A stretch of DNA of 64,000 bases from Planctomycetaceae bacterium (GTDB lineage Bacteria; Planctomycetota; UBA1135; GCA-002686595): the NCBI GenBank assembly GCA_011525785.1, contig WYBT01000021.1:124001-188000 (forward strand), in the 5' to 3' direction. The position numbers and the translations under genes were made by a program. Below are positions 1,539-46,558 of this stretch, piece by piece. The notes under the pieces are model-generated. The model was given only the letters and a program-made list of their open reading frames with translations. It was not told the DNA's origin and searched no databases. The first letter of the stretch is position 1, and each line of letters opens with the position of its first letter.

Positions 1539-3605
1539 TTGAAGTCCAATTCAAAGAGCACCCAAGCCAACGCTGCTGCGCCGCTCGAGGCCGGACTGGC
1601 GCGTCCGTTCGCGATCATCGCGGTAGTGGCGCTCGCGCTGCGCGTGCTTTACCTCGCGCAGGCCTCCAGCACGCCACTGTTCGCTCTGCCGATCATGGAC
1701 GGCGCGGCGTACCGCGAATGGGCCGCGCGCATCGCGGCCGGCGACTGGATCGGCAGCGAGGTCTTCTACCAGGCGCCGCTGTATCCGTACTTCCTGGCGC
1801 TGATCCAGTTCGTTTTCGGCGACGGACTTGGCCCCGTGCGCGCGGTGCAAGCGCTGCTCGGCTCGCTCTCGTGCGGCTTGCTGTTCCTCGCCGCGCGCTG
1901 GTTCTTCTCGCGCCGCGTCGGCTGGATCGCGGGCCTGGGGCTGGCGCTGTATCCGCCGGCGATCTTCTTCGACGGCCAGATCCAGAAGGCGTCGCTCGGC
2001 GGAGTGCTCGTCACGGCGCTGCTCGCGTTGCTCGCGCGCGCGCGGCACGCCTCGAGTCCCAAGCTGTGGCTCGCCGCAGGTGCGACGCTCGGCGCGCTGA
2101 TGGCGACGCGCGAGGAGACGTTGCTCCTCGTTCCGGTGTTGCTCGCTGCGTGCTGGGCGTACAGCAGGGCTCGCTCGCAAGCGCCAGCGAGCCTTGCAGC
2201 GACGCTCGGCGGCCTAGCGCTCGTCCTCGCGCCGATCGCCGCGCGCAACGCGCACGTCGGCGGCGAGTTCGTGCTCACGACCTCGCAGGCCGGCTCGAAC
2301 TTCTTCATCGGCAATCACGAGGGCGCGAGCGGCGTGTACGAGCCGCTGCTCCCCGGCCGCAGCAGCACTCCGCTCGAGCGCATCGACGCGCGCCAGCTCG
2401 CGGAGCAGGGCGCCGGCCGACAGCTGAGCGCCTCCGAGGTCTCGAGCTACTGGTTCGGCAAGTCGTTCGAGTGGATCACGGCCGAGCCGCTCGAATGGCT
2501 CGCGCTACTGGCGCGCAAGTTCGCGCTCGCGCTGAACGCGTACGAGATCCCCGACTACGAGGACCAGGGCTACTACGCCGAGCATTCGTGGCTGCTGCGC
2601 GGACTCGGCGCTGTGCTGCACTTCGGCCTGATCGCGCCGCTCGCGGCCGCCGGACTGCTGTTGAGCTGGTCGCGCCGGCGCGAGCTCGCCGTGCTGCACG
2701 CGTTCATCGTCGCACTGCTCGCGGGCCTCGTGTTGTTCTACGTGTTCGGCCGCTACCGCTATCCGCTCGCTCCGCCAGCGTTGATCCTCGCGGCGGCCGC
2801 GTTGGCGCTCGGCCACGAGCATTGGCTGGCGAACGAGCGCCGCAAGCTCGCGCCCGCGCTCCTCGCCGCGCTCGCACTCGGCGTGCTCTCGAACTGGCCG
2901 CTGATCGACCGGCGCGCGCAGCTCGCGATGTCGCTGTCGAACGTCGGTGCGGCGCTGATCGACGCGGGGCGCGGCGCCGAGGCGGTGGGGGACCTGCAGC
3001 GCTCGGTCGAGCTCGCCGACGACCCCGACACGCGCGCGAACTTGAGCGTGGCGCTGCTGGCGGCGAAACAGCCGCGCGAGGCGCTCGTGCACGCGCGTCG
3101 CGCGAGCGAGCAACGTCCCGACGATCCGGTGCTGCTGCGGCGCTTGAGCGCGGCGCAGCTCGCCAGCGGCGACGAGCGCGCGGCGATCGAGACGCTCAAG
3201 GCCGCGATCCAGCGTCGTCCGAGCGAAGTCGAGAGCTGGGAAGCGCTGGTGGCGGTGTTCGTCAACCGCGGCGACTGGATGCGCGCCGTCGAGACCGCCC
3301 GCAGCACCCTGCGCACCAACCCCGAGTCGCTCGCGGCCGGCCTGCAGCTCGTGTGGCTGCTCTCGGTCGCCGAGGACCCGGCGCAGCGCGCTCCCGCGGA
3401 GGCAGTGCAGCTCGCGCAGGGGCTCGAGGTGCGCACGCGCGGTGAAGACGTGCGCGTGCTCGAGATGCACGGCGTCGCGCTCGCGAGCGCGGGCCGCCGC
3501 GACGAGGCTCAGGTCAAGTTCGAACAAGCCGCGCAGCGCGCGCTGGCGCTGGGCTCGCGCGATCTCGCCGATCGGATCCGCGCGAGCGCTGCTGCGATGC
3601 GCTGA
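1539..3605 (+). CDS. GT39-like membrane glycosyltransferase fused to TPR domain
   Basis: The 688-residue protein has about ten hydrophobic segments in residues 20-460, then a soluble TPR-like tail of about 220 residues. Near the N-terminus, after the first membrane segment, comes MDGAAYREWAARI and then YQAPLYPYFLALI. This matches the first periplasmic loop of the GT39/ArnT/RgtA-type family, where an Asp is the expected catalytic residue. These enzymes transfer a sugar from a polyprenyl-phosphate donor to an acceptor outside the membrane. The tail has TPR-style helices (for example ANLSVALLAAKQPREALVHARRA). The start is a TTG, because no ATG or GTG precedes the first membrane helix; the start is less certain than the frame. 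The SIR2-like gene begins 12 nt downstream, so the two may be co-transcribed. Donor and acceptor cannot be told from the sequence. Confidence 0.8.
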   Translation: MKSNSKSTQANAAAPLEAGLARPFAIIAVVALALRVLYLAQASSTPLFALPIMDGAAYREWAARIAAGDWIGSEVFYQAPLYPYFLALIQFVFGDGLGPVRAVQALLGSLSCGLLFLAARWFFSRRVGWIAGLGLALYPPAIFFDGQIQKASLGGVLVTALLALLARARHASSPKLWLAAGATLGALMATREETLLLVPVLLAACWAYSRARSQAPASLAATLGGLALVLAPIAARNAHVGGEFVLTTSQAGSNFFIGNHEGASGVYEPLLPGRSSTPLERIDARQLAEQGAGRQLSASEVSSYWFGKSFEWITAEPLEWLALLARKFALALNAYEIPDYEDQGYYAEHSWLLRGLGAVLHFGLIAPLAAAGLLLSWSRRRELAVLHAFIVALLAGLVLFYVFGRYRYPLAPPALILAAAALALGHEHWLANERRKLAPALLAALALGVLSNWPLIDRRAQLAMSLSNVGAALIDAGRGAEAVGDLQRSVELADDPDTRANLSVALLAAKQPREALVHARRASEQRPDDPVLLRRLSAAQLASGDERAAIETLKAAIQRRPSEVESWEALVAVFVNRGDWMRAVETARSTLRTNPESLAAGLQLVWLLSVAEDPAQRAPAEAVQLAQGLEVRTRGEDVRVLEMHGVALASAGRRDEAQVKFEQAAQRALALGSRDLADRIRASAAAMR

Positions 3606-3617
3606 GGTCGCACATCG

Positions 3618-5348
3618 ATGCCGCTGAGCTTCCAACATCTGCTCCCCCGACTCGTGGCGGCCTACGAGCGCGGTCGGCTCACGCCGTTCATCGGCAGCGG
3701 TCTGAGCATGCCCGTCGCGGGCTCGTGGTCGGGCCTGATCAAAGGCCTCGAGCAAGCCGCCGGCCTCGAGTCGTCCACGCTCGAAGCGGACAACAAGCCC
3801 GAGGCCCTCGTGCGGCGCGCGAACAAGGCGACGCGCAAGCTGCGCCTCGCGGACGAAGAGCGCTTCTACCGCGTCGTGCGCGGCTTGATGGGCTCGCGTG
3901 AGGCCGATCCGCCGCCGCAGACGCTCGCGCTCGCCAAGCTCTGGTGGCCGCTGGTGCTCACCACCAACTACGACAACCTGTTCGCGATCGCGCACCGCCG
4001 CGCGCACGGCAAGGACGCTGAAGGCGGCGAGCGGCCGCTGCAGGTGCTCGGCCGCAGCCCGATCGACTGCCAGCACGTGCTCTCGTCGCTCTCGAGCCCC
4101 AGCCACGCGATTTTGTGGGCTCTGCAGGGTTTTCTGCGCGCGCCGAACAGCTCGCGGCTCGCGCGCGGCGACGAGGAGCGCCCGCACGAGGTCGTGATCG
4201 GCCACCAGGAGTACCGCGCGGTCGCCAATCGCGAGCCGCACTTCCGGCGCGCCTTCGCCGAAGTCTTCCGCAGCCGCTCGCTGTTCTTCCTCGGCTCCGG
4301 ATTGAGCGAGTCGTACCTGCTCGATCTGTTCGGCGAGGTGCTCGAGATCTACGGGCCGAGCGCGCGGCCGAACTACGCGCTGATGAAGAAGGGCGAGGTC
4401 GACCCCGACTTCATGCTCGCGCGCTTCCACACCGAGGTGTGCGAGTACGACGACCACGCCGAGCTGCCCAAGCTGCTCGATCAGCTCGCGGAGGCCGTGG
4501 CCGAGCGCGCGTGTCGTCAGGTGCGTTGGAGCTTCGCCGTCCACGCGCCGCGCGCGGAGGCGCTCGCGACGCCGCGCGAGGACTTCACCGTGGTGCGCGG
4601 GAACCTGCGCGTTCCCGAAGCGGACGAGTGCCTAGTCGTGAGCGGCGGCGAGCGCAACGGCCAGCTGCACTTCGGTCCGCAGGCTGCGGCCGTGCTCAGC
4701 CAGCTCGGCCTGCGCACCGGCCTTCGCCCCGCGCGGGTCGAGCGCCCGTTCACGCGCCTCTCGAGCGCTCCGCTCGTGCTCGCGGCCGTCGCGGTCGAAG
4801 CGAGCGGCCCGCGCGACCTGCGCAACGTGTTCAGCGCCTGCGAGACGCTGTTCGGCCTTGTCGAACAGGTTGAGCCCAAGATCCGCCGCGTCGTGATGCA
4901 GCAGATCTACTCCGGCAAGCGCTCGCTGTTCCCCGACCGGCTCGCGCTGGCGCAGATCGCGCGCGCCTTCGGCTACTGGAAACGCGTGCAGCCGCAGTCG
5001 CGCTTCGAACTCGAGCTGCACACCTGGAAGCCCACGATCTACCAGGAGCTCGCCAGCGGCCGCCTCGATCTGATCGAGATGCTCTCGAGCGATGACATCC
5101 GCTTCTGGGCCGAGATCGTCGAGCAGGACGGCGCCGTCGAACGCCGCCTGTTCCACGAGGAGCCGAGCTTCGAGATCCGCGCGCTGCTCGAACGCCTCGA
5201 AGTCCCCGCCGACGGCTGGACGCTCGAAGTCTCGCCCGCGCCGAGCCCCGAGCTCGAACTCCGCCCCGCGCGCGAGTGCCTCGACGACAGCCTGATCGAG
5301 CTGGGCGTGGTGCCCGGCAGCTCGATCGTGCTGCGGCGCGCGGAATAG
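3618..5348 (+). CDS. SIR2-like protein with possible macro-like middle and ubiquitin-like C-terminal domain
   Basis: The 576-residue protein has no signal peptide and is predicted cytoplasmic. Residues 1-290 look like a SIR2-type NAD-binding domain: TPFIGSGLS (22-30), LTTNYDN (114-120), VVIGHQEYR (192-200) and LFFLGSGLSE (222-231). Where related proteins usually have a Leu-His-Gly active-site motif, this one reads ILWALQGFL (165-173), so the usual catalytic His appears to be Gln. Residues 318-480 have an alternating strand/helix pattern (ECLVVSGG, PLVLAAVAV, IRRVVMQQI, FELELHTW) that could be a macro-like fold; this is weak. Residues 495-576 fit a ubiquitin-like beta-grasp: two strands, a helix (EIRALLERLEVP), then DDSLIELGVVPGSSIVLRR. 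SIR2 domains often act as NADases in bacterial defence, but no TIR, Argonaute or HerA partner is adjacent. Function unknown. Confidence 0.8.
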   Translation: MPLSFQHLLPRLVAAYERGRLTPFIGSGLSMPVAGSWSGLIKGLEQAAGLESSTLEADNKPEALVRRANKATRKLRLADEERFYRVVRGLMGSREADPPPQTLALAKLWWPLVLTTNYDNLFAIAHRRAHGKDAEGGERPLQVLGRSPIDCQHVLSSLSSPSHAILWALQGFLRAPNSSRLARGDEERPHEVVIGHQEYRAVANREPHFRRAFAEVFRSRSLFFLGSGLSESYLLDLFGEVLEIYGPSARPNYALMKKGEVDPDFMLARFHTEVCEYDDHAELPKLLDQLAEAVAERACRQVRWSFAVHAPRAEALATPREDFTVVRGNLRVPEADECLVVSGGERNGQLHFGPQAAAVLSQLGLRTGLRPARVERPFTRLSSAPLVLAAVAVEASGPRDLRNVFSACETLFGLVEQVEPKIRRVVMQQIYSGKRSLFPDRLALAQIARAFGYWKRVQPQSRFELELHTWKPTIYQELASGRLDLIEMLSSDDIRFWAEIVEQDGAVERRLFHEEPSFEIRALLERLEVPADGWTLEVSPAPSPELELRPARECLDDSLIELGVVPGSSIVLRRAE

Positions 5349-5437: not shown

Positions 5438-7213
5438 ATGCGCAAACCGCAGTCCGTCGCTACAGCGCTTCTCACCCTGCTCGCTCCCCCGGCCGCGTTC
5501 GCGCAGATCACCACGCGCGTGAGCGTCGACAGCCTCGGCGCGCAGGCCAACCAGACCACCGGCCCGACGATGATCTCGGGCAACGGTCGCTATGTGGCGT
5601 TTGCTAGCAACGCCACCAACCTGGTCGCGGGCGACACCAACGGCGTGACGGACGTGTTCGTCCACGACCGGCAGCTCGCGACCACCGAGCGCGTGAGCGT
5701 CTCGACCGCCGGCGTGCAGGGCAACTTCCAGAGCGGCTTCAGCGGCAACCCCGCGTTCATGGAGACGCTGCCGGCCGGCCTGTCGATCTCGTCCGACGGC
5801 CGCTTCGTCGTGTTCGAGAGCTTCGCGAACAACCTCGTCGCGGGCGACAGCAACGCGCGCACCGACGTGTTCTTGCGCGATCGCCAGCTCGGGACGACCG
5901 AACGCGTCAGCCTCACGGCCGGCAACGCGCAGTGCGGCGGCGACTGCTGGCGTCCGAGCGTGAGCGACGACGGCCGCTTCATCACGTTCCAGTCCGGCGA
6001 CAACTCGATCGTCGCGGGCGACGTCACGGGCTTCGACGTCTTCGTGCGCGATCGAACGCTCGGCACGACGTTCAAAGTGAGCCTTGGAACCGGCGGGACC
6101 CAGGGCAACAACGACTCCGAGGTGCAGGGCGGCCCGGGCGCGATCTCGAACGACGGCCGCTACGTCGTGTTCCGTTCGCTGAGCAGCAACTTCGTCGCGG
6201 GGGACACGAACGGACGCTGGGACACGTTCGTGTACGACCGCACGCTGCTCGTCACGACGCGTGCGAGCGTCAGCGCCGCCGGTGCGCAAGGAAACGACAA
6301 CGCGCAAGGCGCGTGCATCTCGGCCGACGGCCGCTACGTCGCGTTCACGAGCTCGGCCACCAACCTGGTCGCGGGCGACGTCAACGGGTTCAACGATGTC
6401 TTCGTGCGCGACCTCGTCGCGGGCACGACGGTCTGCGCGAGTCTCGACTCCTCCGGCGCGCCGGCCCTGAGCAGCAACAACTCCGATCCGTACATCTCGC
6501 AGAGCGGGCGCTTCGTGAGCTTCGCCAGCTCGGCGACCACGTTGGTCCCAGGCGATACCAACGGCCGCCGAGATGTGTTCGTGCGCGACCTCGCGACGAA
6601 TTCGATCCGTTGCGCGAGCCGCTCCTCAGCCGGCGCCTTCGGCAGCCAGGACAGCTACGCCGGCTCGTTCTCGAACGACGGTCGCTACGTCGCGTTCTGG
6701 AGCCTGTCGTCGAACCTCGTCGCCGGCGACACCAACGCGCGCTGGGACGCGTTCGTGAACGACCGCGGCCCGAACAACTTCGTCGTCTACTGCACGGCCG
6801 GGACCTCGACCAACGGCTGCACGGCGCTCATGAGCGCTGTCGGCGCGCCGAGCGCGACGGCCGGCGCGGGCTTCACGCTCACCGCGAGCTCCGTCGAAGG
6901 GCAGAAGCAGGGCCTGATGTTCTACGGCGTCGACAACTCGGGCTTCGCGCCCGCGCCGTGGGGAGCGAGCTCCTCGTACCTGTGCGTGAAGCCTCCCACG
7001 CAGCGCTCAGCCCCGGGCAGCTCGGGCGGCGTCGCGGGCTCGTGCAATGGCGTGCTCACGCTGGACTGGAACACCTTCGCCGCGACGCCGGGCGTGCTCG
7101 GCGCGCCGTTCGCCGCGGGCGACCACGTGTTCGCGCAGGCCTGGTACCGCGACCCGTCGAGCGCGAAGACGACAGCGATGTCGGACGCGCTCGAGTTCGT
7201 CGTCGAGCCGTAG
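5438..7213 (+). CDS. Secreted PD40-type beta-propeller protein with shared C-terminal domain
   Basis: The 591-residue protein has a signal peptide ending near AAFAQ. The body contains about seven repeats of the form ISSDGRFVVFESFANNLVAGD followed by DVFLRDRQLGTTERVS. This is the WD40-like/TolB (PD40) propeller signature. The last 141 residues (from 6788) carry the domain shared by seven proteins of this window: YCTAGTSTNGC, VEGQKQGLMFYG, LCVKPPTQR, SCNG, WYRDP and ALEFVVEP at the end. The start at 5438 was chosen because GGAG lies 9 nt upstream and the signal peptide begins there; an in-frame ATG at 5420 is possible. The open frame continues further upstream into the SIR2-like gene, but that part is not signal-peptide-like. 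It is probably exported; its ligand is unknown. Confidence 0.85.
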   Translation: MRKPQSVATALLTLLAPPAAFAQITTRVSVDSLGAQANQTTGPTMISGNGRYVAFASNATNLVAGDTNGVTDVFVHDRQLATTERVSVSTAGVQGNFQSGFSGNPAFMETLPAGLSISSDGRFVVFESFANNLVAGDSNARTDVFLRDRQLGTTERVSLTAGNAQCGGDCWRPSVSDDGRFITFQSGDNSIVAGDVTGFDVFVRDRTLGTTFKVSLGTGGTQGNNDSEVQGGPGAISNDGRYVVFRSLSSNFVAGDTNGRWDTFVYDRTLLVTTRASVSAAGAQGNDNAQGACISADGRYVAFTSSATNLVAGDVNGFNDVFVRDLVAGTTVCASLDSSGAPALSSNNSDPYISQSGRFVSFASSATTLVPGDTNGRRDVFVRDLATNSIRCASRSSAGAFGSQDSYAGSFSNDGRYVAFWSLSSNLVAGDTNARWDAFVNDRGPNNFVVYCTAGTSTNGCTALMSAVGAPSATAGAGFTLTASSVEGQKQGLMFYGVDNSGFAPAPWGASSSYLCVKPPTQRSAPGSSGGVAGSCNGVLTLDWNTFAATPGVLGAPFAAGDHVFAQAWYRDPSSAKTTAMSDALEFVVEP

Positions 7214-13226: not shown

Positions 13227-14456
13227 TCACGGCACGTACGTCATCTCGACAGCGTCCGAGAGGTTGGTGGTCTTCGAGGCCGGCGGGTCACGGAACCAGG
13301 CCTGCGCAAACACCTTGTCGCCGGGCGACCAGGGATTGCCGAGCGAGCCGGGGTTCGCGGCCTGGAAGGCGTTCCAGTCGAGCGTGAAGGCCCCGTTGCA
13401 CGCGCTCGCGGTTCCGCCCGAGCTCTGCGCGAGCGAGCGCTGCGTCGGAGTCTTGACGCACAGGAAGCTGTTGCTCGTCGCCGACCACGGTTGGATCAGC
13501 GCGCCGGCGACGCTGTAGAAGATCAGGCCCGACTTCTGGCCTTCGACGTTGGCGACCGAGATCACGCACGGGTTGGCCGCGCTGACGCTGGGTTGGTTGC
13601 TCGCGGCGATCGCCGGGACGCAGCCGTTCGACGTGGTGCCCGCGGTGCAGTAGACCAGCGGCGAGGACGGCGCGAACAGCGACGGCGCGAAGCCGGCCCC
13701 GGAGAAGGTTTCGCTGAACGGCGAGGGTGAGAGGAGCGTGGCCGCGTCGTACGCGCCCAGCGCGATGTCCCACGAGTAGAGGACCTGACCCGCGTCATCG
13801 CCGACGAGCCAGACCTTGCCGCCGATGACTTCACAGCCGTCGATGTCGGTCTGACCCGCGGGATAGGCCGAGAGCTTGGTGATCGTGCCCGCGACGATGT
13901 CGACCTCGAACAGGCCGCCGCCCACGCCAGCCGGCGCGACGTCGCTGCACATGTAGAACTTGCCGCTGGTCGGGTCGTAGCCCAGGCCGCCCCAGTCGTA
14001 GGTCGTGACGCCGGGGTTGAAGACCGGCGTCACCAGCGGCGGCGTCACCGACACGTCGATCGTGTAGATGCCTTCGGGATTCGTCGCGGAGTTCGTGTTG
14101 CGGCCGCCCCAGAGGCGACCGGCGGTAGTCGGGTCGGAGGCGAGGCTCGCGAACAGGATCGCCGCGCCGTCGACGGTCGAGATCGGGTTGCCGAGGTTCG
14201 TCGTGCTCGGGCCCGAGCCGTAGCTCCACACGTGCATCGGCGTGCCGTCGTTGCAGTAGATCTTGCCGTTGAGGTCGTCGCAGGCGAGTCCCCAGACGTC
14301 GGTGTCGTTCCACAGCGGCGTGGAGGAGTTGGTGGCGAGGTCGATGTGCCAGGCGCACACGTTGCCCGTGCCCGCGTCGACGCCGACGATGAGCTGCGCG
14401 TGAGCGCCCGATGCCAGTGCGCTGAGCGCGAGGGCTGAAAAGAGAGTGTTCTTCAT
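13227..14456 (-). CDS. Secreted propeller-like protein with shared C-terminal domain
   Basis: The 409-residue protein has a clear signal peptide (MKNTLFSALALSALASGAHA). The middle resembles a six-bladed propeller of the SMP-30/NHL type (LIVGVDAGTGNVCAWHIDLA, GLACDDLNGKIYCND, DWGGLGYDPTSGKFYMCS). The last 142 residues (13227-13652) are a canonical copy of the shared C-terminal domain: YCTAGTTSNGC, VEGQKSGLIFYS, LCVKTPTQR, ACNG, WFRDP and AVEMTYVP. The open frame runs 208 codons further upstream across the uracil-DNA glycosylase gene, but that part is a shadow. A paralogous propeller with a more diverged C-terminal domain lies at 29499-30668. It is probably an exported, surface-attached protein of unknown ligand. 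Confidence 0.85.
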   Translation of the reverse strand: MKNTLFSALALSALASGAHAQLIVGVDAGTGNVCAWHIDLATNSSTPLWNDTDVWGLACDDLNGKIYCNDGTPMHVWSYGSGPSTTNLGNPISTVDGAAILFASLASDPTTAGRLWGGRNTNSATNPEGIYTIDVSVTPPLVTPVFNPGVTTYDWGGLGYDPTSGKFYMCSDVAPAGVGGGLFEVDIVAGTITKLSAYPAGQTDIDGCEVIGGKVWLVGDDAGQVLYSWDIALGAYDAATLLSPSPFSETFSGAGFAPSLFAPSSPLVYCTAGTTSNGCVPAIAASNQPSVSAANPCVISVANVEGQKSGLIFYSVAGALIQPWSATSNSFLCVKTPTQRSLAQSSGGTASACNGAFTLDWNAFQAANPGSLGNPWSPGDKVFAQAWFRDPPASKTTNLSDAVEMTYVP

Positions 14457-29498: not shown

Positions 29499-30668
29499 AT
29501 GAATCGCAACGCAGCCCGTATCGCGTCACTGACCCTGCTCCTCGCGTCTTGGACAGCCACTGCCAGCGCTCAGCTGCTCGTCGGAGTCCAGAGCAACGCC
29601 GCCAACACCTTCAACGCCGCCGTCTGGCACATCGACGTCACGACGGGGGAGCGCACGATGCTCTTCCCCGGCGGTGCGAGCGCGATCGCGGTCGATGACG
29701 CCGGCGGCCGCGTGTTCGTGGCCAACGCTGCTCAGCTCTCGCTGTGGAGCTACGGCAGCGGCCAGACGGCTACGGCGCTGGGATCCGTGCAGCGCGCAAG
29801 TGGCGGCGCGCTCAACATCACCGGCATGGCCTTCGGCGGCGGGCGGCTGTTCGCCACCACGACCGCCAGCAACCTGCCGACGGCGCAGTGGTTGTTCGAG
29901 ATCGACCTCTCGACGCTCGTCGCGACGCCGCTGCCGACGACGCAGGGCCTCTCGTGGATCGAAGCGGTGTCGTTCGACGCGACGAGCGGGCTGTTCTATC
30001 TGCAGCACGACGACGGCGACATCTACACGATGGACATCCTCGGCGGCGGCTCGCCGCAGATCGTCGCCGACATCGGCTTCGGCCCGGACGGCGGCGCGCT
30101 GGGCGCGAACGGGCGCTACTACGTGACCTACGACAACGCCGGACCGTTCTCGATCTTCGATCTGACGACGAACACCTACACCGGCAGCTCGATCTGGAGT
30201 CCGTACTTCAACGGCCTCGACGCTGCGGGCGCGGACTGGGCGCCGAACTTCAACGCGGCCCCTGGGCCGCGCGTCTACTGCCAGCCGTCGCCGAACGCTG
30301 TCAACCATCTGCGCACGCTGCACGCCGGTACGCCGAGCGCGAGCGCGGGCTCGGGCTTCACCATCACTCACACGCAAGTCCCGAACAACTCGCGCGTGCA
30401 GCCGCACTTCTCGCTCAGCGGCCCGGCGAGCGCTCCGTTCCTCGGCGGCTTGCGCTGCGTGCGCGTCCCGGTGTTCCGCATGCCGCAGAGCACGGGCGTG
30501 AGCGGCACACACGTGCTCGACTTCAACGCGTACATCGCGAGCGGCGCGAATCCCGGCCTGGTCGCGGGTCAGACCGTGTGGTTCCAACTCGCCACGCAGA
30601 CGCCCGCGGGCGCCGCGAACGACACCTTCACGCTCTCCGCGGGCCTGCGCTTCACCATCGCTCCGTAA
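29499..30668 (+). CDS. Secreted propeller-like protein with diverged shared C-terminal domain
   Basis: The 389-residue protein has a signal peptide (MNRNAARIASLTLLLASWTATASA). Its N-terminal half is a paralogue of the protein at 13227-14456: AQLLVGVQ... and VWHIDVTTGE here, AQLIVGVD... and AWHIDLATN there. The C-terminal 130 residues (from 30276) align with the shared domain but have changed: YCQPSPNAVNH replaces YCTAGTSTNGC, so the second Cys is lost. LRCVRVPVFR, HVLDFNAYIASGANPGLVAG and a final GLRFTIAP keep the framework. It shows that this domain tolerates large changes while staying at the C-terminus. Function unknown. Confidence 0.82.
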   Translation: MNRNAARIASLTLLLASWTATASAQLLVGVQSNAANTFNAAVWHIDVTTGERTMLFPGGASAIAVDDAGGRVFVANAAQLSLWSYGSGQTATALGSVQRASGGALNITGMAFGGGRLFATTTASNLPTAQWLFEIDLSTLVATPLPTTQGLSWIEAVSFDATSGLFYLQHDDGDIYTMDILGGGSPQIVADIGFGPDGGALGANGRYYVTYDNAGPFSIFDLTTNTYTGSSIWSPYFNGLDAAGADWAPNFNAAPGPRVYCQPSPNAVNHLRTLHAGTPSASAGSGFTITHTQVPNNSRVQPHFSLSGPASAPFLGGLRCVRVPVFRMPQSTGVSGTHVLDFNAYIASGANPGLVAGQTVWFQLATQTPAGAANDTFTLSAGLRFTIAP

Positions 30669-40263: not shown

Positions 40264-41970
40264 TCACGGCCCGACGAGCAACTCCATCGCGTTCGAGAGA
40301 TTGCTGCCCCGCGGGGCGCTGCCGTCGCGGAACCACGCCTGCACGTTCAGACTGGCGCCGGCGATGACCGGAGTGCCGCCGATGACAGGGTTGGTGACCA
40401 GGTACGCGTTCAAGTCGAAAGCGAACGCGCCGTCGCAGGCGCCGGCAGTCCCGCCGGAGTTCCCGAATGCGGCGCGTTGGATGGGCGCGCGCACGCACAC
40501 GGAGCTCGAGCTCGTCGAACTCCAGGGAATGCCCGTGCTCCCGTTGGCGCCGATGAACATCACCGTGCTCCTGCCGGCGTCCATGCCCGAGACTTGGACC
40601 ACGAAGGGTTGTGCGTTGCTCGCGCTTGGGGCGCCGGTGGACGACAACAGCGCCGAGCAGCCGTTCGTCGAGATGCCCGCGGTGCAGTACGTCTCCGGAC
40701 CTGTTCGCGACTGGTTGAGCAACAGGTCGAGCCTGTTGAGGGCGCTGCTGGCCGCCACGAGATCGGTCCGTCCGTCGCCATTGAGGTCGCCGGCGAGGAC
40801 GTCGACAGGCAAGGAACCGACGCGATAACGCTTCGCAGCAGCGAAGCTCCCTTGGGCTCTGCCCGGCAGGACCACGACGGCGGGACGCGACTCGTCGAAG
40901 CTCGCTACCGCCAAGTCGAGGAGGCCGTCGACGTCGAGGTCGCTTGCGGTCAGCGCGCTTGCGGACCCGCCGATCGGGTACGAACTGACCGACCACAGCG
41001 CCCCGGGGCCGGCGTTGATCGCGACCGACACGTCGTTCGAGTCCCTGTTGACGGAAGCGAAGTCGAGGCGACCGTCCGAGTTGAAGTCGCCGAGCACGAC
41101 TTCGGGCGGCCGCGAGCCGACGGGCAGCGCGAAGGCGAACGCAAGCCCGCCCGCGCCGTCGCCGCGGAGCACGAAGACATCGTCCGAGCCTTCGCACGCG
41201 AGCGCCACGTCCAGGTTGCCATCGCCGTCGTCGTTCAGATCCGCTGCCGCGATCGAACGGGGTCCGAAGCCGGCGCCGAACGTGATCGCGCTCGCGAAGC
41301 CGCCCGCGCCGTTGCCGAGCAACACCGAAACGTCGTTGGAGCCGAGGTTCGCGACCGCGAGATCCAACGCTCCGTCGGAGTTGAAGTCCGCGAGGGCCAG
41401 TGCGTGAGGCGTCTGGCCGGCGGCGAAGTTCACCGGCGCGCCGAACGCGCCGCCCCCCAGGCCGCGCAACACCGACGCATCGTTCGAACCGGAGTTGGCC
41501 GTCACCAAGTCAGGGATTCCGTCGGCGTCGACATCGCCGATCGCGACGGCGCGCGGGGCGACACCGGTCGGGTAGCTCGTCACCGTGTAGGACCACCCCG
41601 AGCCGTTGTTCTCCGCCACCGAGACGCTGTTCGATCGCGCGTCGGCGGTGACCAGGTCAGCCAGGCCGTCGCCGTTCACATCTCCAGCGGCGAGTCCCGC
41701 TGGAGTCGCTCCGACGGAGTAGGAAACCGGATCCCAGAAGCGGCCCGAGCCGCGGCTGATCTGGACGGTGATGCTGTTCGACTCTGCGTTGGCGCTCGCG
41801 AGGTCGGGTCGTCCGTCGCGATTGACGTCCGCGACCTCGACGGCGCTGGGGGCGACGCCGGACTCCAGCAAGGGCTCGAGGAAGAGCGGTGTATTGGACT
41901 GGGCGCGCGTCGATGGCGCGAGCAGGCATGGGCTAGCGAGGATGCAGAAGAGGAGCTTCGCGTTTGCCAT
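40264..41970 (-). CDS. Secreted FG-GAP/VCBS repeat protein with shared C-terminal domain
   Basis: The 568-residue protein has a signal peptide (MANAKLLFCILASPCLLAPSTRA). About seven FG-GAP/VCBS repeats follow (DVNRDGRPDLASAN, DVNGDGLADLVTAD, DVDADGIPDLVTAN, DFNSDGALDLAVAN and others), which fold as a Ca2+-binding propeller. The last 142 residues (40264-40689) are a canonical shared C-terminal domain: YCTAGISTNGC, STVMFIGANG, VCVRAPIQR, ACDG, WFRDG and AMELLVGP. An AAGGGA ribosome-binding site lies 6 nt before the ATG at 41970; the longer open frame to 42939 has no coding character. It is probably surface-attached; ligand unknown. Confidence 0.87.
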   Translation of the reverse strand: MANAKLLFCILASPCLLAPSTRAQSNTPLFLEPLLESGVAPSAVEVADVNRDGRPDLASANAESNSITVQISRGSGRFWDPVSYSVGATPAGLAAGDVNGDGLADLVTADARSNSVSVAENNGSGWSYTVTSYPTGVAPRAVAIGDVDADGIPDLVTANSGSNDASVLRGLGGGAFGAPVNFAAGQTPHALALADFNSDGALDLAVANLGSNDVSVLLGNGAGGFASAITFGAGFGPRSIAAADLNDDGDGNLDVALACEGSDDVFVLRGDGAGGLAFAFALPVGSRPPEVVLGDFNSDGRLDFASVNRDSNDVSVAINAGPGALWSVSSYPIGGSASALTASDLDVDGLLDLAVASFDESRPAVVVLPGRAQGSFAAAKRYRVGSLPVDVLAGDLNGDGRTDLVAASSALNRLDLLLNQSRTGPETYCTAGISTNGCSALLSSTGAPSASNAQPFVVQVSGMDAGRSTVMFIGANGSTGIPWSSTSSSSVCVRAPIQRAAFGNSGGTAGACDGAFAFDLNAYLVTNPVIGGTPVIAGASLNVQAWFRDGSAPRGSNLSNAMELLVGP

Positions 41971-43300: not shown

Positions 43301-44803
43301 ATGAACAAGATGGATGCGCCGCTCTCGGCGCTCGGGCGGTTTCGGGGATGGACAACACACTTGTTGGCCGCGGCGACGCTTGTCGCGGGCCGACCTCTCG
43401 TCGCGCAGAACGCGATGCTCGAACTCCCACCACACCCAACCCTGCTGAACGCTCGCGCGACCGACGTCTCGGACGACGGTCAGCGCATCGTCGGTGACGC
43501 GGGACCGACCGGAGGGGGCCTGTACCTCGCGGTCGAGTGGTCTGGGGCGAGCACGATCGCTTCCATGGGACTGCCCTCCGGGACCAGTCCACTCGCCTTG
43601 GCGCGCAGCGCCAACGCGTTTTGCGGGAGCCGGCCGAGTTGGTCCGGCTTCCGCGTGCTCAACGGGTCCACGGCCATGTTCGCGGGGATCGGAGAGGCGA
43701 TCTCCGACGACGGCCAGACGGTGGTCGGCGTCCGCCTCGCGTCGGGCGCCGGCGGTTACAGCGCGTTTCGTTGGACGGCCAGCGGAGGGCTGGTGGTGCT
43801 CGACTCGCTGATCGGCGCTCCAGTCGGTTCCTGGGACGTAGCAGCGGCTCAGGCCGTCTCCGGTGACGGCTCCATCGTTTCGGGAGTCATCTACCACGAT
43901 GGCAACTCGTTCACCGACGCGTTCCGCTACGACGTAACGTCCGGTGTCGTTCAACGTCTCAACCCGACGGGGTCTGCTTCGGCGGGGGCCATGTCGCGGG
44001 ACGGCAGCGTGATCTTCGGAGACGTGAACAACTCAGGGGTGTTCCGGTGGAGCGCGTCGAGTGGCTTTCAGAACCTCGGCGCCCCGACTGGGGCGGCGTT
44101 CATCCAGGTCATCGAAACCTCCGACGATGGCAGCGTGGTCGTCGGTCATTTGCGACCCTCCGGGTCGAACAACTTTCAACCCTTCCGTTGGTCCGTCAGC
44201 ACGGGATTCCAGGTGCACACGGTGGCGGCGAACGCCACGGTGAGCGGCATGTCCCCCAACGGCGCATTCGTCGTCGGCCAGATTGTGTATCCCCAAATGG
44301 CCGCGCGCGGCTTCGTGTGGGGACCGGACCTCAACGCGAACGGCGTGATCGACGGCTACGAATCTCCGTTTTGCCAGCTTCCGACGACCTACTGCACGAG
44401 CAAAGTCAATTCGCAGTTCTGCACGCCAGCGATCGACGTCTCCGGGCCGGCCTCCGCGTCCGGCGGGAGCACGTGTCTGGTCACCGCGTCGAACATGCTC
44501 AACAACCGCGCCGGGCTGCTGCTCTACAGCTACCAGGCGAGCGCCACGAGCTTCCAGGGCGGCTACCTGTGCGTCGCCGCACCGCGGCGCAGGACGCCAG
44601 TTCAGGTCTCGGGCGGATCGCCGACCGGCTCGGATTGTTCCGGGACCTACACCTTCGACTTCACGGCTCACATCACGAGCGGCGTCGATCCGCAGTTGCA
44701 GGTCGTGGGTCAGAGCTTCGCGTGCCAGTACTGGGCGCGCGATCCGCAGGACCCGTGGGGCTCGAGCCTCACCGACGCTATCCAGGGCGTCGTCTGCCAG
44801 TAA
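43301..44803 (+). CDS. Secreted HAF-repeat protein with diverged shared C-terminal domain
   Basis: The 500-residue protein has an N-terminal signal segment (residues 15-36, ending LVAQ). The body has about six HAF-type propeller repeats of the kind ISDDGQTVVGVRLASGAGGYSAFRWT, VSGDGSIVSGV, MSRDGSVIFGD and SDDGSVVVGH, each followed by an FRW or FRY strand. These occur in secreted autotransporter-like and surface proteins. The last 138 residues (from 44390) are a diverged shared domain with all four Cys kept: YCTSKVNSQFC, NNRAGLLLYSYQ, LCVAAPRRR, CSGTYTFDF and YWARDP, ending IQGVVCQ with one more Cys. GGAGG lies 8 nt before the start. Function unknown. Confidence 0.85.
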   Translation: MNKMDAPLSALGRFRGWTTHLLAAATLVAGRPLVAQNAMLELPPHPTLLNARATDVSDDGQRIVGDAGPTGGGLYLAVEWSGASTIASMGLPSGTSPLALARSANAFCGSRPSWSGFRVLNGSTAMFAGIGEAISDDGQTVVGVRLASGAGGYSAFRWTASGGLVVLDSLIGAPVGSWDVAAAQAVSGDGSIVSGVIYHDGNSFTDAFRYDVTSGVVQRLNPTGSASAGAMSRDGSVIFGDVNNSGVFRWSASSGFQNLGAPTGAAFIQVIETSDDGSVVVGHLRPSGSNNFQPFRWSVSTGFQVHTVAANATVSGMSPNGAFVVGQIVYPQMAARGFVWGPDLNANGVIDGYESPFCQLPTTYCTSKVNSQFCTPAIDVSGPASASGGSTCLVTASNMLNNRAGLLLYSYQASATSFQGGYLCVAAPRRRTPVQVSGGSPTGSDCSGTYTFDFTAHITSGVDPQLQVVGQSFACQYWARDPQDPWGSSLTDAIQGVVCQ

Positions 44804-45427: not shown

Positions 45428-46558
45428 TTGAATCGCACCCCGTCCACCGTCCGTCGCTGCGCCCTGCAGCTCAGCGCGCTCGCGTTCCTCAGCTCCGCTC
45501 CGCTGCTCGCCCAGCTGCATCTGGGCTCGTGGACGCTGGTCGACCCGTACAACCGGTGGACGACGGTCAACCCGAACGCGACCACGTGCAGCATGGAGGA
45601 GACCGCCTCCAGCAGCACTGTCGGTCCAGGCTGGGTGGTGAGCCCCTTCACGCTGCCGAGCACGGCCAGCTTCTCCGTGACCGTGCGCCCGACGAACAAC
45701 GGGGACGACGATCTGATCGGCGTCGCCTTCAGCTATCAAGCGAGCACGCAGCACGTGCTGCTCGACTGGAAGCGTGCGACGCAGAGCTTCAACTGGGGCG
45801 ACCCGACGGCGATCAACGACGACGTGGCCGAGGCCGGGCTCAAGGTGAAGAAGATCGCCGGCTCGTTCACGCGCGACGGACTGTGGGGCGGCACGGACGG
45901 GCTGGGCGTGTCGACGCTCGCAGGACCGGTCGGAACTGGATGGGTCGGCAACGTGTCGTACGTGCTCCAATTCGACATCACGCCCGGGCGCGTTGTGATC
46001 CGGCGCGACGGCGTGCAGATCTTCGACGTGCTCGATCCGGCCATCGGCGCCGGCCGCATCGCCTTCTACTCGTTCAGCCAGGACGCCGTCGCGTTCTCGA
46101 ACGTGTCGATCGCGCCGGCGGGCCCGCTCGTGTACTGCACGGCTGGAACCTCGACCAACGGCTGCGTCCCGGCGATCGGCGCCAGCGGAACGCCGAGCCT
46201 CGCCGCGAACTCGGGCTACACGCTGAGCGTGAGCAGCCTCGAGGGCCAGAAGCAGGGCCTCTTCTTCTACGGCGTGGGCGGCGCGGCGATCTCGCCCTGG
46301 GCGCCCGCGAGCTCGAGCTTCCTGTGCGTGAAGTCGCCGACCCAGCGCCTCTCTGCGCTGAACTCGGGCGGCGTGGCCGGACAGTGCAACGGCAGCTTCG
46401 CGCAGGACTGGCTCGCCTACCTCGCCGCGAACCCGCTGACGCTCGGCGCGCCGTTCGCGCCCGGCACGCCGGTCAACGCGCAGGCTTGGTACCGCGATCC
46501 GGCTGCGGCCAAGACCACCAACCTGAGCAACGCGCTCGAGTTCGTGCTCGTGCCATGA
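45428..46558 (+). CDS. Secreted thrombospondin-C-terminal-like lectin-fold protein with shared C-terminal domain
   Basis: The 376-residue protein starts at a TTG that has AGAGG 5 nt upstream and opens a proper signal peptide (NRTPSTVRRCALQLSALAFL, ending LLAQ); an upstream start in the same frame at 45359 is less likely. The middle domain has DDDLIGVAFSYQASTQHVLLD and WKRATQSFNWG, which is like the thrombospondin C-terminal jelly-roll lectin fold, plus ITPGRVVIRRDGVQIFDVLD and GRIAFYSFSQDAVAFSNV. The last 141 residues (46133-46558) are a canonical shared domain: YCTAGTSTNGC, LEGQKQGLFFYG, LCVKSPTQR, CNG, WYRDP and ALEFVLVP. It may bind glycans or Ca2+ at the cell surface (inference). Confidence 0.84.
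   Translation: MNRTPSTVRRCALQLSALAFLSSAPLLAQLHLGSWTLVDPYNRWTTVNPNATTCSMEETASSSTVGPGWVVSPFTLPSTASFSVTVRPTNNGDDDLIGVAFSYQASTQHVLLDWKRATQSFNWGDPTAINDDVAEAGLKVKKIAGSFTRDGLWGGTDGLGVSTLAGPVGTGWVGNVSYVLQFDITPGRVVIRRDGVQIFDVLDPAIGAGRIAFYSFSQDAVAFSNVSIAPAGPLVYCTAGTSTNGCVPAIGASGTPSLAANSGYTLSVSSLEGQKQGLFFYGVGGAAISPWAPASSSFLCVKSPTQRLSALNSGGVAGQCNGSFAQDWLAYLAANPLTLGAPFAPGTPVNAQAWYRDPAAAKTTNLSNALEFVLVP

Follow-up and report, generated by a model that had tools for sequence, protein, structure and literature searches.

We found that the gene at positions 3618-5348 on the forward strand of the window (the whole 64,000-nucleotide stretch of Planctomycetaceae DNA analysed here) encodes a 576-aa protein, predicted to be a stand-alone SIR2_2 protein with three domains in a fixed order. 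These are a sirtuin-like SIR2_2 domain (residues 1-290; 3618-4487), a macro-like domain (residues ~300-484; 4515-5069) and a ubiquitin-like beta-grasp domain without a C-terminal Gly-Gly (residues 490-576; 5085-5345), all on the forward strand. The reading frame runs from an ATG start to a TAG stop and represents a real gene, as a full-length copy with 77% identity is present in the same genus and homologues are present in six phyla. Domains were assigned by structure prediction combined with fold or profile comparison; the AlphaFold model of the whole protein, built from an alignment of 18 homologues, has pLDDT 85.1 and pTM 0.86. Among these 18 family members, SIR2_2 is the sole domain recognised by Pfam, with nothing significant for the middle or the tail, and NCBIfam likewise has no model for these two parts. 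With about even confidence, we read the fusion as an NAD+/ADP-ribose-responsive, probably defence-type, one-gene stress or immune switch that has a variant active site and uses its ubiquitin-like domain as a non-conjugated dock.

SIR2-type bacterial proteins often destroy NAD+ to stop viruses. In the window protein the SIR2_2 model (PF13289; 3e-15) scores 57 bits versus a gathering cut-off of 24.5, and the same model matches all 18 family members. The NAD-binding motifs are intact (G26xG28xS30 and T116-N117-Y-D119), and their residues G26, G28, S30, N117 and D119 (GxGxS/TTNxD) are invariant in 18 of 18 members; R146, D150, C151, R210 and E215 are also invariant across the family. The nearest solved structures by Foldseek are KomC, ThsA, DSR2 and Avs5, and the nearest by sequence are human FAM118B (2e-15), KomC and ThsA; nearly all of these relatives are NAD-processing immunity proteins. 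Of the 18 members, 17 match the PADLOC model LmuA and 16 the model ThsA, in each case via the SIR2 part.

The middle of the protein is predicted to be a degenerate macro-like fold, as the sequence-only reading had supposed. When residues ~300-484 were compared with an alignment of macro domains from related genomes, hhalign recovered 153 collinear columns with a score of 28.4 (P = 0.0016), whereas 40 block-shuffled controls scored no higher than 20.3 and reversed controls no higher than 12.5. A profile of the middle picks up the PARP14 macrodomain at E = 0.0055 and, with a weaker match, TTHA0132 at E = 0.16, and the full model searched against BFVD finds viral ADP-ribose hydrolases and ubiquitins. 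Pfam Macro (PF01661) matched none of the 18 members at E<1. Further matches of the middle domain to engineered repeats were discarded as repeat artefacts. In the hhalign alignment to macro domains, conservation is lost at the NAAN and glycine-rich ligand loops; binding of a ligand by this domain is therefore a guess.

The sequence-only reading missed a change in the catalytic motif of the SIR2 domain. At 4125-4130 (forward strand), Q170-G171 stands in place of the canonical His-Gly (HG) in the family alignment. QG is found in 17 of the 18 aligned members, and the glutamine recurs in another five copies from Myxococcota (four of them intact, one broken), so that 21 of 22 intact copies carry it; a single member (L015) has HG. 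Two residues before the glutamine, the usual K, H or Y is replaced by A or C. Other SIR2_2 proteins in genomes of the same order have HG in 25 of 25 cases. A genome of the same family also encodes a 702-aa SIR2 protein with HG (L003:1438-3822), directly downstream of which lies a frame that resembles, by eye, a MoxR-type ATPase.

What this substitution means for activity can be weighed against published mutants and variants. ThsA loses activity in both N112A and H152A, the latter also losing the oligomer (PMC7272460), and histidine mutants of FAM118 are inactive (PMC12700824). PaAvs5 naturally carries NG, reported as a new form of a motif that had been regarded as absolutely conserved, and is active (PMC12931631); loss of the histidine therefore need not mean loss of activity. 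The PaAvs5 N153Q mutant gives no protection (PMC12931631), and this, together with the inactivity of ThsA H152A, implies that a glutamine may mean no NADase. QG may thus mark an inactive enzyme retained for its binding, or else a further functional form of the motif.

We consider it possible, though we hold the idea tentatively, that the SIR2 domain is a non-hydrolysing NAD+ or ADP-ribose sensor, in which QG binds without catalysis and the protein serves as a scaffold whose ubiquitin-like domain signals to a partner encoded elsewhere. This would agree with the near-constant QG beside invariant NAD-binding motifs, with the altered residue two positions before it, with the failure of glutamine at this site in PaAvs5 and with the presence of two nucleotide-type folds in one chain; however, one member retains HG, the NG variant shows that the histidine is not obligatory, and the invariant polar residues R146, D150, C151, R210 and E215 could mean a rebuilt active site. 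More doubtful is a reading of the fusion as a one-gene immunity protein of a new kind: the ubiquitin-like domain would serve a SIR2 effector as its trigger or its docking module, and QG would work with rebuilt NAD+ chemistry.

Homologues with the three-part order, which the sequence-only reading had proposed to seek in other genomes, were found: 22 intact proteins share it, and they come from six phyla (Planctomycetota, Myxococcota, Pseudomonadota, Acidobacteriota, Melainabacteria and Binatota), in each of which they are infrequent. As the first-look filter scores few candidates per genome, the genome counts are lower bounds: at least about three of 294 Planctomycetota genomes, at least seven of 195 Myxococcota genomes (one copy being interrupted), and at least one of 396 and one of 398 genomes in the phyla to which the Acidobacteriota and Bradyrhizobium carriers belong, the single match in each of these last two sets being the known carrier itself. 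Each of ten carriers checked has one copy, and two planctomycete MAGs have two. In one Myxococcota genome (G467), the SIR2 half and the macro/ubiquitin-like half are separated by ~5.6 kb, apparently through an insertion (L108:7823-14864). The family tree has two large branches, each of which mixes phyla, and phyla do not form clades; several forks are weak and branches are long, and the topology is consistent with horizontal transfer. Phages, plasmids and viral contigs were considered as vehicles of spread and set aside, as searches of phage, plasmid and IMG/VR collections yielded no match to the fusion protein.

Neighbouring genes, called with crude, home-made gene callers, gave a mixed picture with respect to the defence genes that the sequence-only reading had proposed to look for. 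An all-against-all comparison of 242 neighbouring ORFs revealed no recurrent neighbour beyond the synteny of near relatives; this rules out an obligate operon partner, and the fusion gene is therefore a one-gene unit. Immunity-type neighbours are present at three of ~20 loci. In a Devosia MAG (L021:557-11413), a caspase-domain gene, a gene for a 2039-aa CHAT/DUF7379 protein, the SIR2-macro-Ubl gene and lmuC stand in a row with a putative transposase remnant, recognised by eye, between them; the row looks like a defence island. In Bradyrhizobium (L016), a patatin gene, a second SIR2 fragment and probable STALD fragments lie near the fusion gene; the latter are two overlapping ORF fragments 1.2 kb downstream of it (L016:12950-13659) that read, by eye, like a frameshifted or broken STALD/SLOG (ThsA-type) gene. 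PADLOC ThsA matches among the neighbours fit these fragments by eye and are not taken as strong evidence. In the Melainabacteria carrier (L017), a TPR gene, caspase-like by eye, lies 46 bp upstream of the fusion gene.

Most other copies adjoin housekeeping genes, for example topA and dprA, phosphatidylserine decarboxylase and TatD. Upstream of the window copy is a gene for a PMT_2 glycosyltransferase with TPRs (1539-3605, forward strand), which is outside the family and whose stop codon falls 12 bp before the SIR2 start; in this genus the glycosyltransferase and SIR2 genes are 12 bp apart or overlap by 4, and the coupling is confined to the genus. Such surroundings would suit a housekeeping protein that has no part in phage defence and regulates NAD+ or ADP-ribose metabolism, its ubiquitin-like domain serving for assembly. 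We judge this improbable: family members occur in only two of 61 related genomes, and a housekeeping role fits poorly with so low and patchy a frequency and with the lack of a family member in nearly all relatives. For the stress or immune reading, the immunity role of the relatives, the patchy spread, the mixed-phylum tree and some immunity-type neighbourhoods count in its favour, whereas the location of most copies among ordinary genes, the lack of a recurring partner and the absence of matches in the phage, plasmid and IMG/VR collections count against it.

The nearest TIR match lies ~17 kb upstream of the window copy, and no TIR gene adjoins it. The source genome (G000) also encodes another SIR2_2 protein, with HG, and has nine TIR_2 matches; it is thus well stocked with conflict domains of the NAD type, for example at C19:294467-294841 and C14:110358-110741. 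Separately, a C-terminal module of ~142 aa recurs in several otherwise unlike secreted-type proteins, both in the window (6785-7210, 13230-13655, 30273-30665, 40267-40689, 44390-44794 and 46130-46555) and at another locus (L013:8522-8947). The module starts VYCTAGT.xNGC, contains LCVK.PTQR and VFAQAW.RDP, and resembles a domain for sorting or anchoring that these proteins share.

The tail is, on the evidence of structure prediction, a genuine ubiquitin-like beta-grasp domain, which bears out the central claim of the sequence-only reading; that reading had placed the feature at 5070-5348, corresponding to residues 485-576, and the folded domain is slightly shorter. Predicted alone, the tail has pLDDT 95.2. 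Its AlphaFold model has strands at 494-501 and 507-514, a helix at 520-527, a strand at 534-539, short helical turns at ~551-554 and ~559-562 and a strand at 569-574; this is the element order of ubiquitin, with a fourth strand that is weak and barely formed. All 50 PDB matches listed by Foldseek are ubiquitin-like or engineered ubiquitin domains; a different fold, which would have refuted the sequence-only reading, is absent among them. The best is the HOIL-1 UBL (E = 5.6e-5, TM 0.65); others are the tubulin cofactor UBL, Ddi2 UBL, SUMO, UBX (FAF1) and archaeal (Caldiarchaeum) ubiquitin. A sequence profile of the tail searched against the PDB gives as its top four matches three HOIL-1 UBL sequences (E = 0.014-0.018) and a redesigned ubiquitin (0.026); these E-values are marginal, and a competing fold is absent among the matches.

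All 22 intact homologues, including those with only ~30% identity over the full length, keep the tail, and its omega of 0.33 against the sister-species copy indicates purifying selection in this one species pair (0.22 for the SIR2 part and 0.36 for the macro-like part). As it is both retained and under purifying selection, the tail is not a chance product; that it is a low-complexity or chance fold rather than a ubiquitin-like domain is scarcely credible, since the marginal sequence E-values (0.014-0.026) and the lack of a Pfam match stand against a pLDDT of 95, uniformly ubiquitin-like folds among the 50 matches listed, and conservation under selection in the 22 homologues. A C-terminal Gly-Gly is found in none of the 22 copies, which rules out a conjugatable tag, as had been expected. 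The tail is likewise excluded as a mobile domain of other proteins: its profile, searched in 61 related genomes, matched this family alone.

Comparison with known systems places the fusion near, and apart from, several immunity proteins. Like ThsA of Thoeris (SIR2-SLOG; PADLOC ThsA model matching 16 of 18 members, Foldseek E ~1e-12), it begins with a SIR2_2 domain of the NADase type, behind which comes a regulatory domain of the nucleotide type; unlike ThsA, it has a macro-like domain in place of SLOG, an additional ubiquitin-like domain and QG for HG, and no ThsB or TIR gene recurs beside it among the matches listed. Membership of Thoeris, or a SIR2-SLOG architecture, was rejected, the PADLOC ThsA match of the window protein being confined to SIR2 residues 184-262. 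A macro-domain ThsA of Thoeris (PMC11204291) also has a macro-type domain in an immunity effector; it differs in effector type from SIR2-SLOG ThsA, and what it has in common with the fusion is the idea of a macro sensor alone. Avs5 (AVAST type 5) resembles the fusion in its SIR2 domain, a Foldseek structural match, and its NG is the only described natural HG variant that we found (PMC12931631); the fusion has neither a STAND ATPase nor a sensor repeat region, and its glutamine is inactive at the corresponding site of PaAvs5. DSR1 and DSR2 are likewise one-gene SIR2 proteins (Foldseek E ~1e-10 to DSR2), but DSR2 is ~1000 aa long with a different, much longer C-terminal part and HG, and matches to Dsr1 models are weak, in two to three of 18 members (NCBIfam, 3 of 18; PADLOC). 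Among solved structures, the vertebrate SIR2_2 proteins FAM118A/B (PMC12700824) come closest in sequence (E = 2e-15), but they keep the catalytic histidine (H206) and are without a macro or ubiquitin-like domain. The UBL of HOIL-1L is the best match to the tail by both sequence profile and fold; it belongs to a eukaryotic ubiquitin ligase and is ~15% identical, so the kinship is one of fold only.

Returning to the fusion as an NAD+/ADP-ribose-responsive switch, we infer the following course of action. Because conjugation by the Gly-Gly route is impossible, the ubiquitin-like tail would dock onto a partner or trigger protein. The macro-like domain, which would hold the regulatory place of SLOG in ThsA, may bind an ADP-ribose-type ligand. 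Docking would cause the QG-variant SIR2 domain to start NAD+ processing, or an NAD+-dependent assembly, and either could lead to cell arrest. That the protein is an NAD+-linked conflict or stress effector has a likelihood of roughly one half, and that it actively cleaves NAD+, somewhat less than one half; its function would probably be one of defence.

The sequence-only reading had known of no fusion of this kind, and we found no description of a SIR2-Ubl or SIR2-macro-Ubl protein in the open-access literature searched; SIR2_2 proteins with a Macro domain are already listed in the tree legend of Extended Data Fig. 2 of PMC12700824. The fusion adds a SIR2 architecture for which Pfam and NCBIfam have models of the SIR2 part alone, and it links a ubiquitin-type fold with a bacterial effector of the NAD type. 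It also offers naturally occurring QG forms of a motif that was regarded as absolutely conserved before NG was reported in Avs5. It makes testable both the need for the histidine in SIR2 NADase activity and the triggering of bacterial SIR2 proteins through a ubiquitin-like dock, and its sparse occurrence in six phyla hints at a stress or immune protein of a new design.
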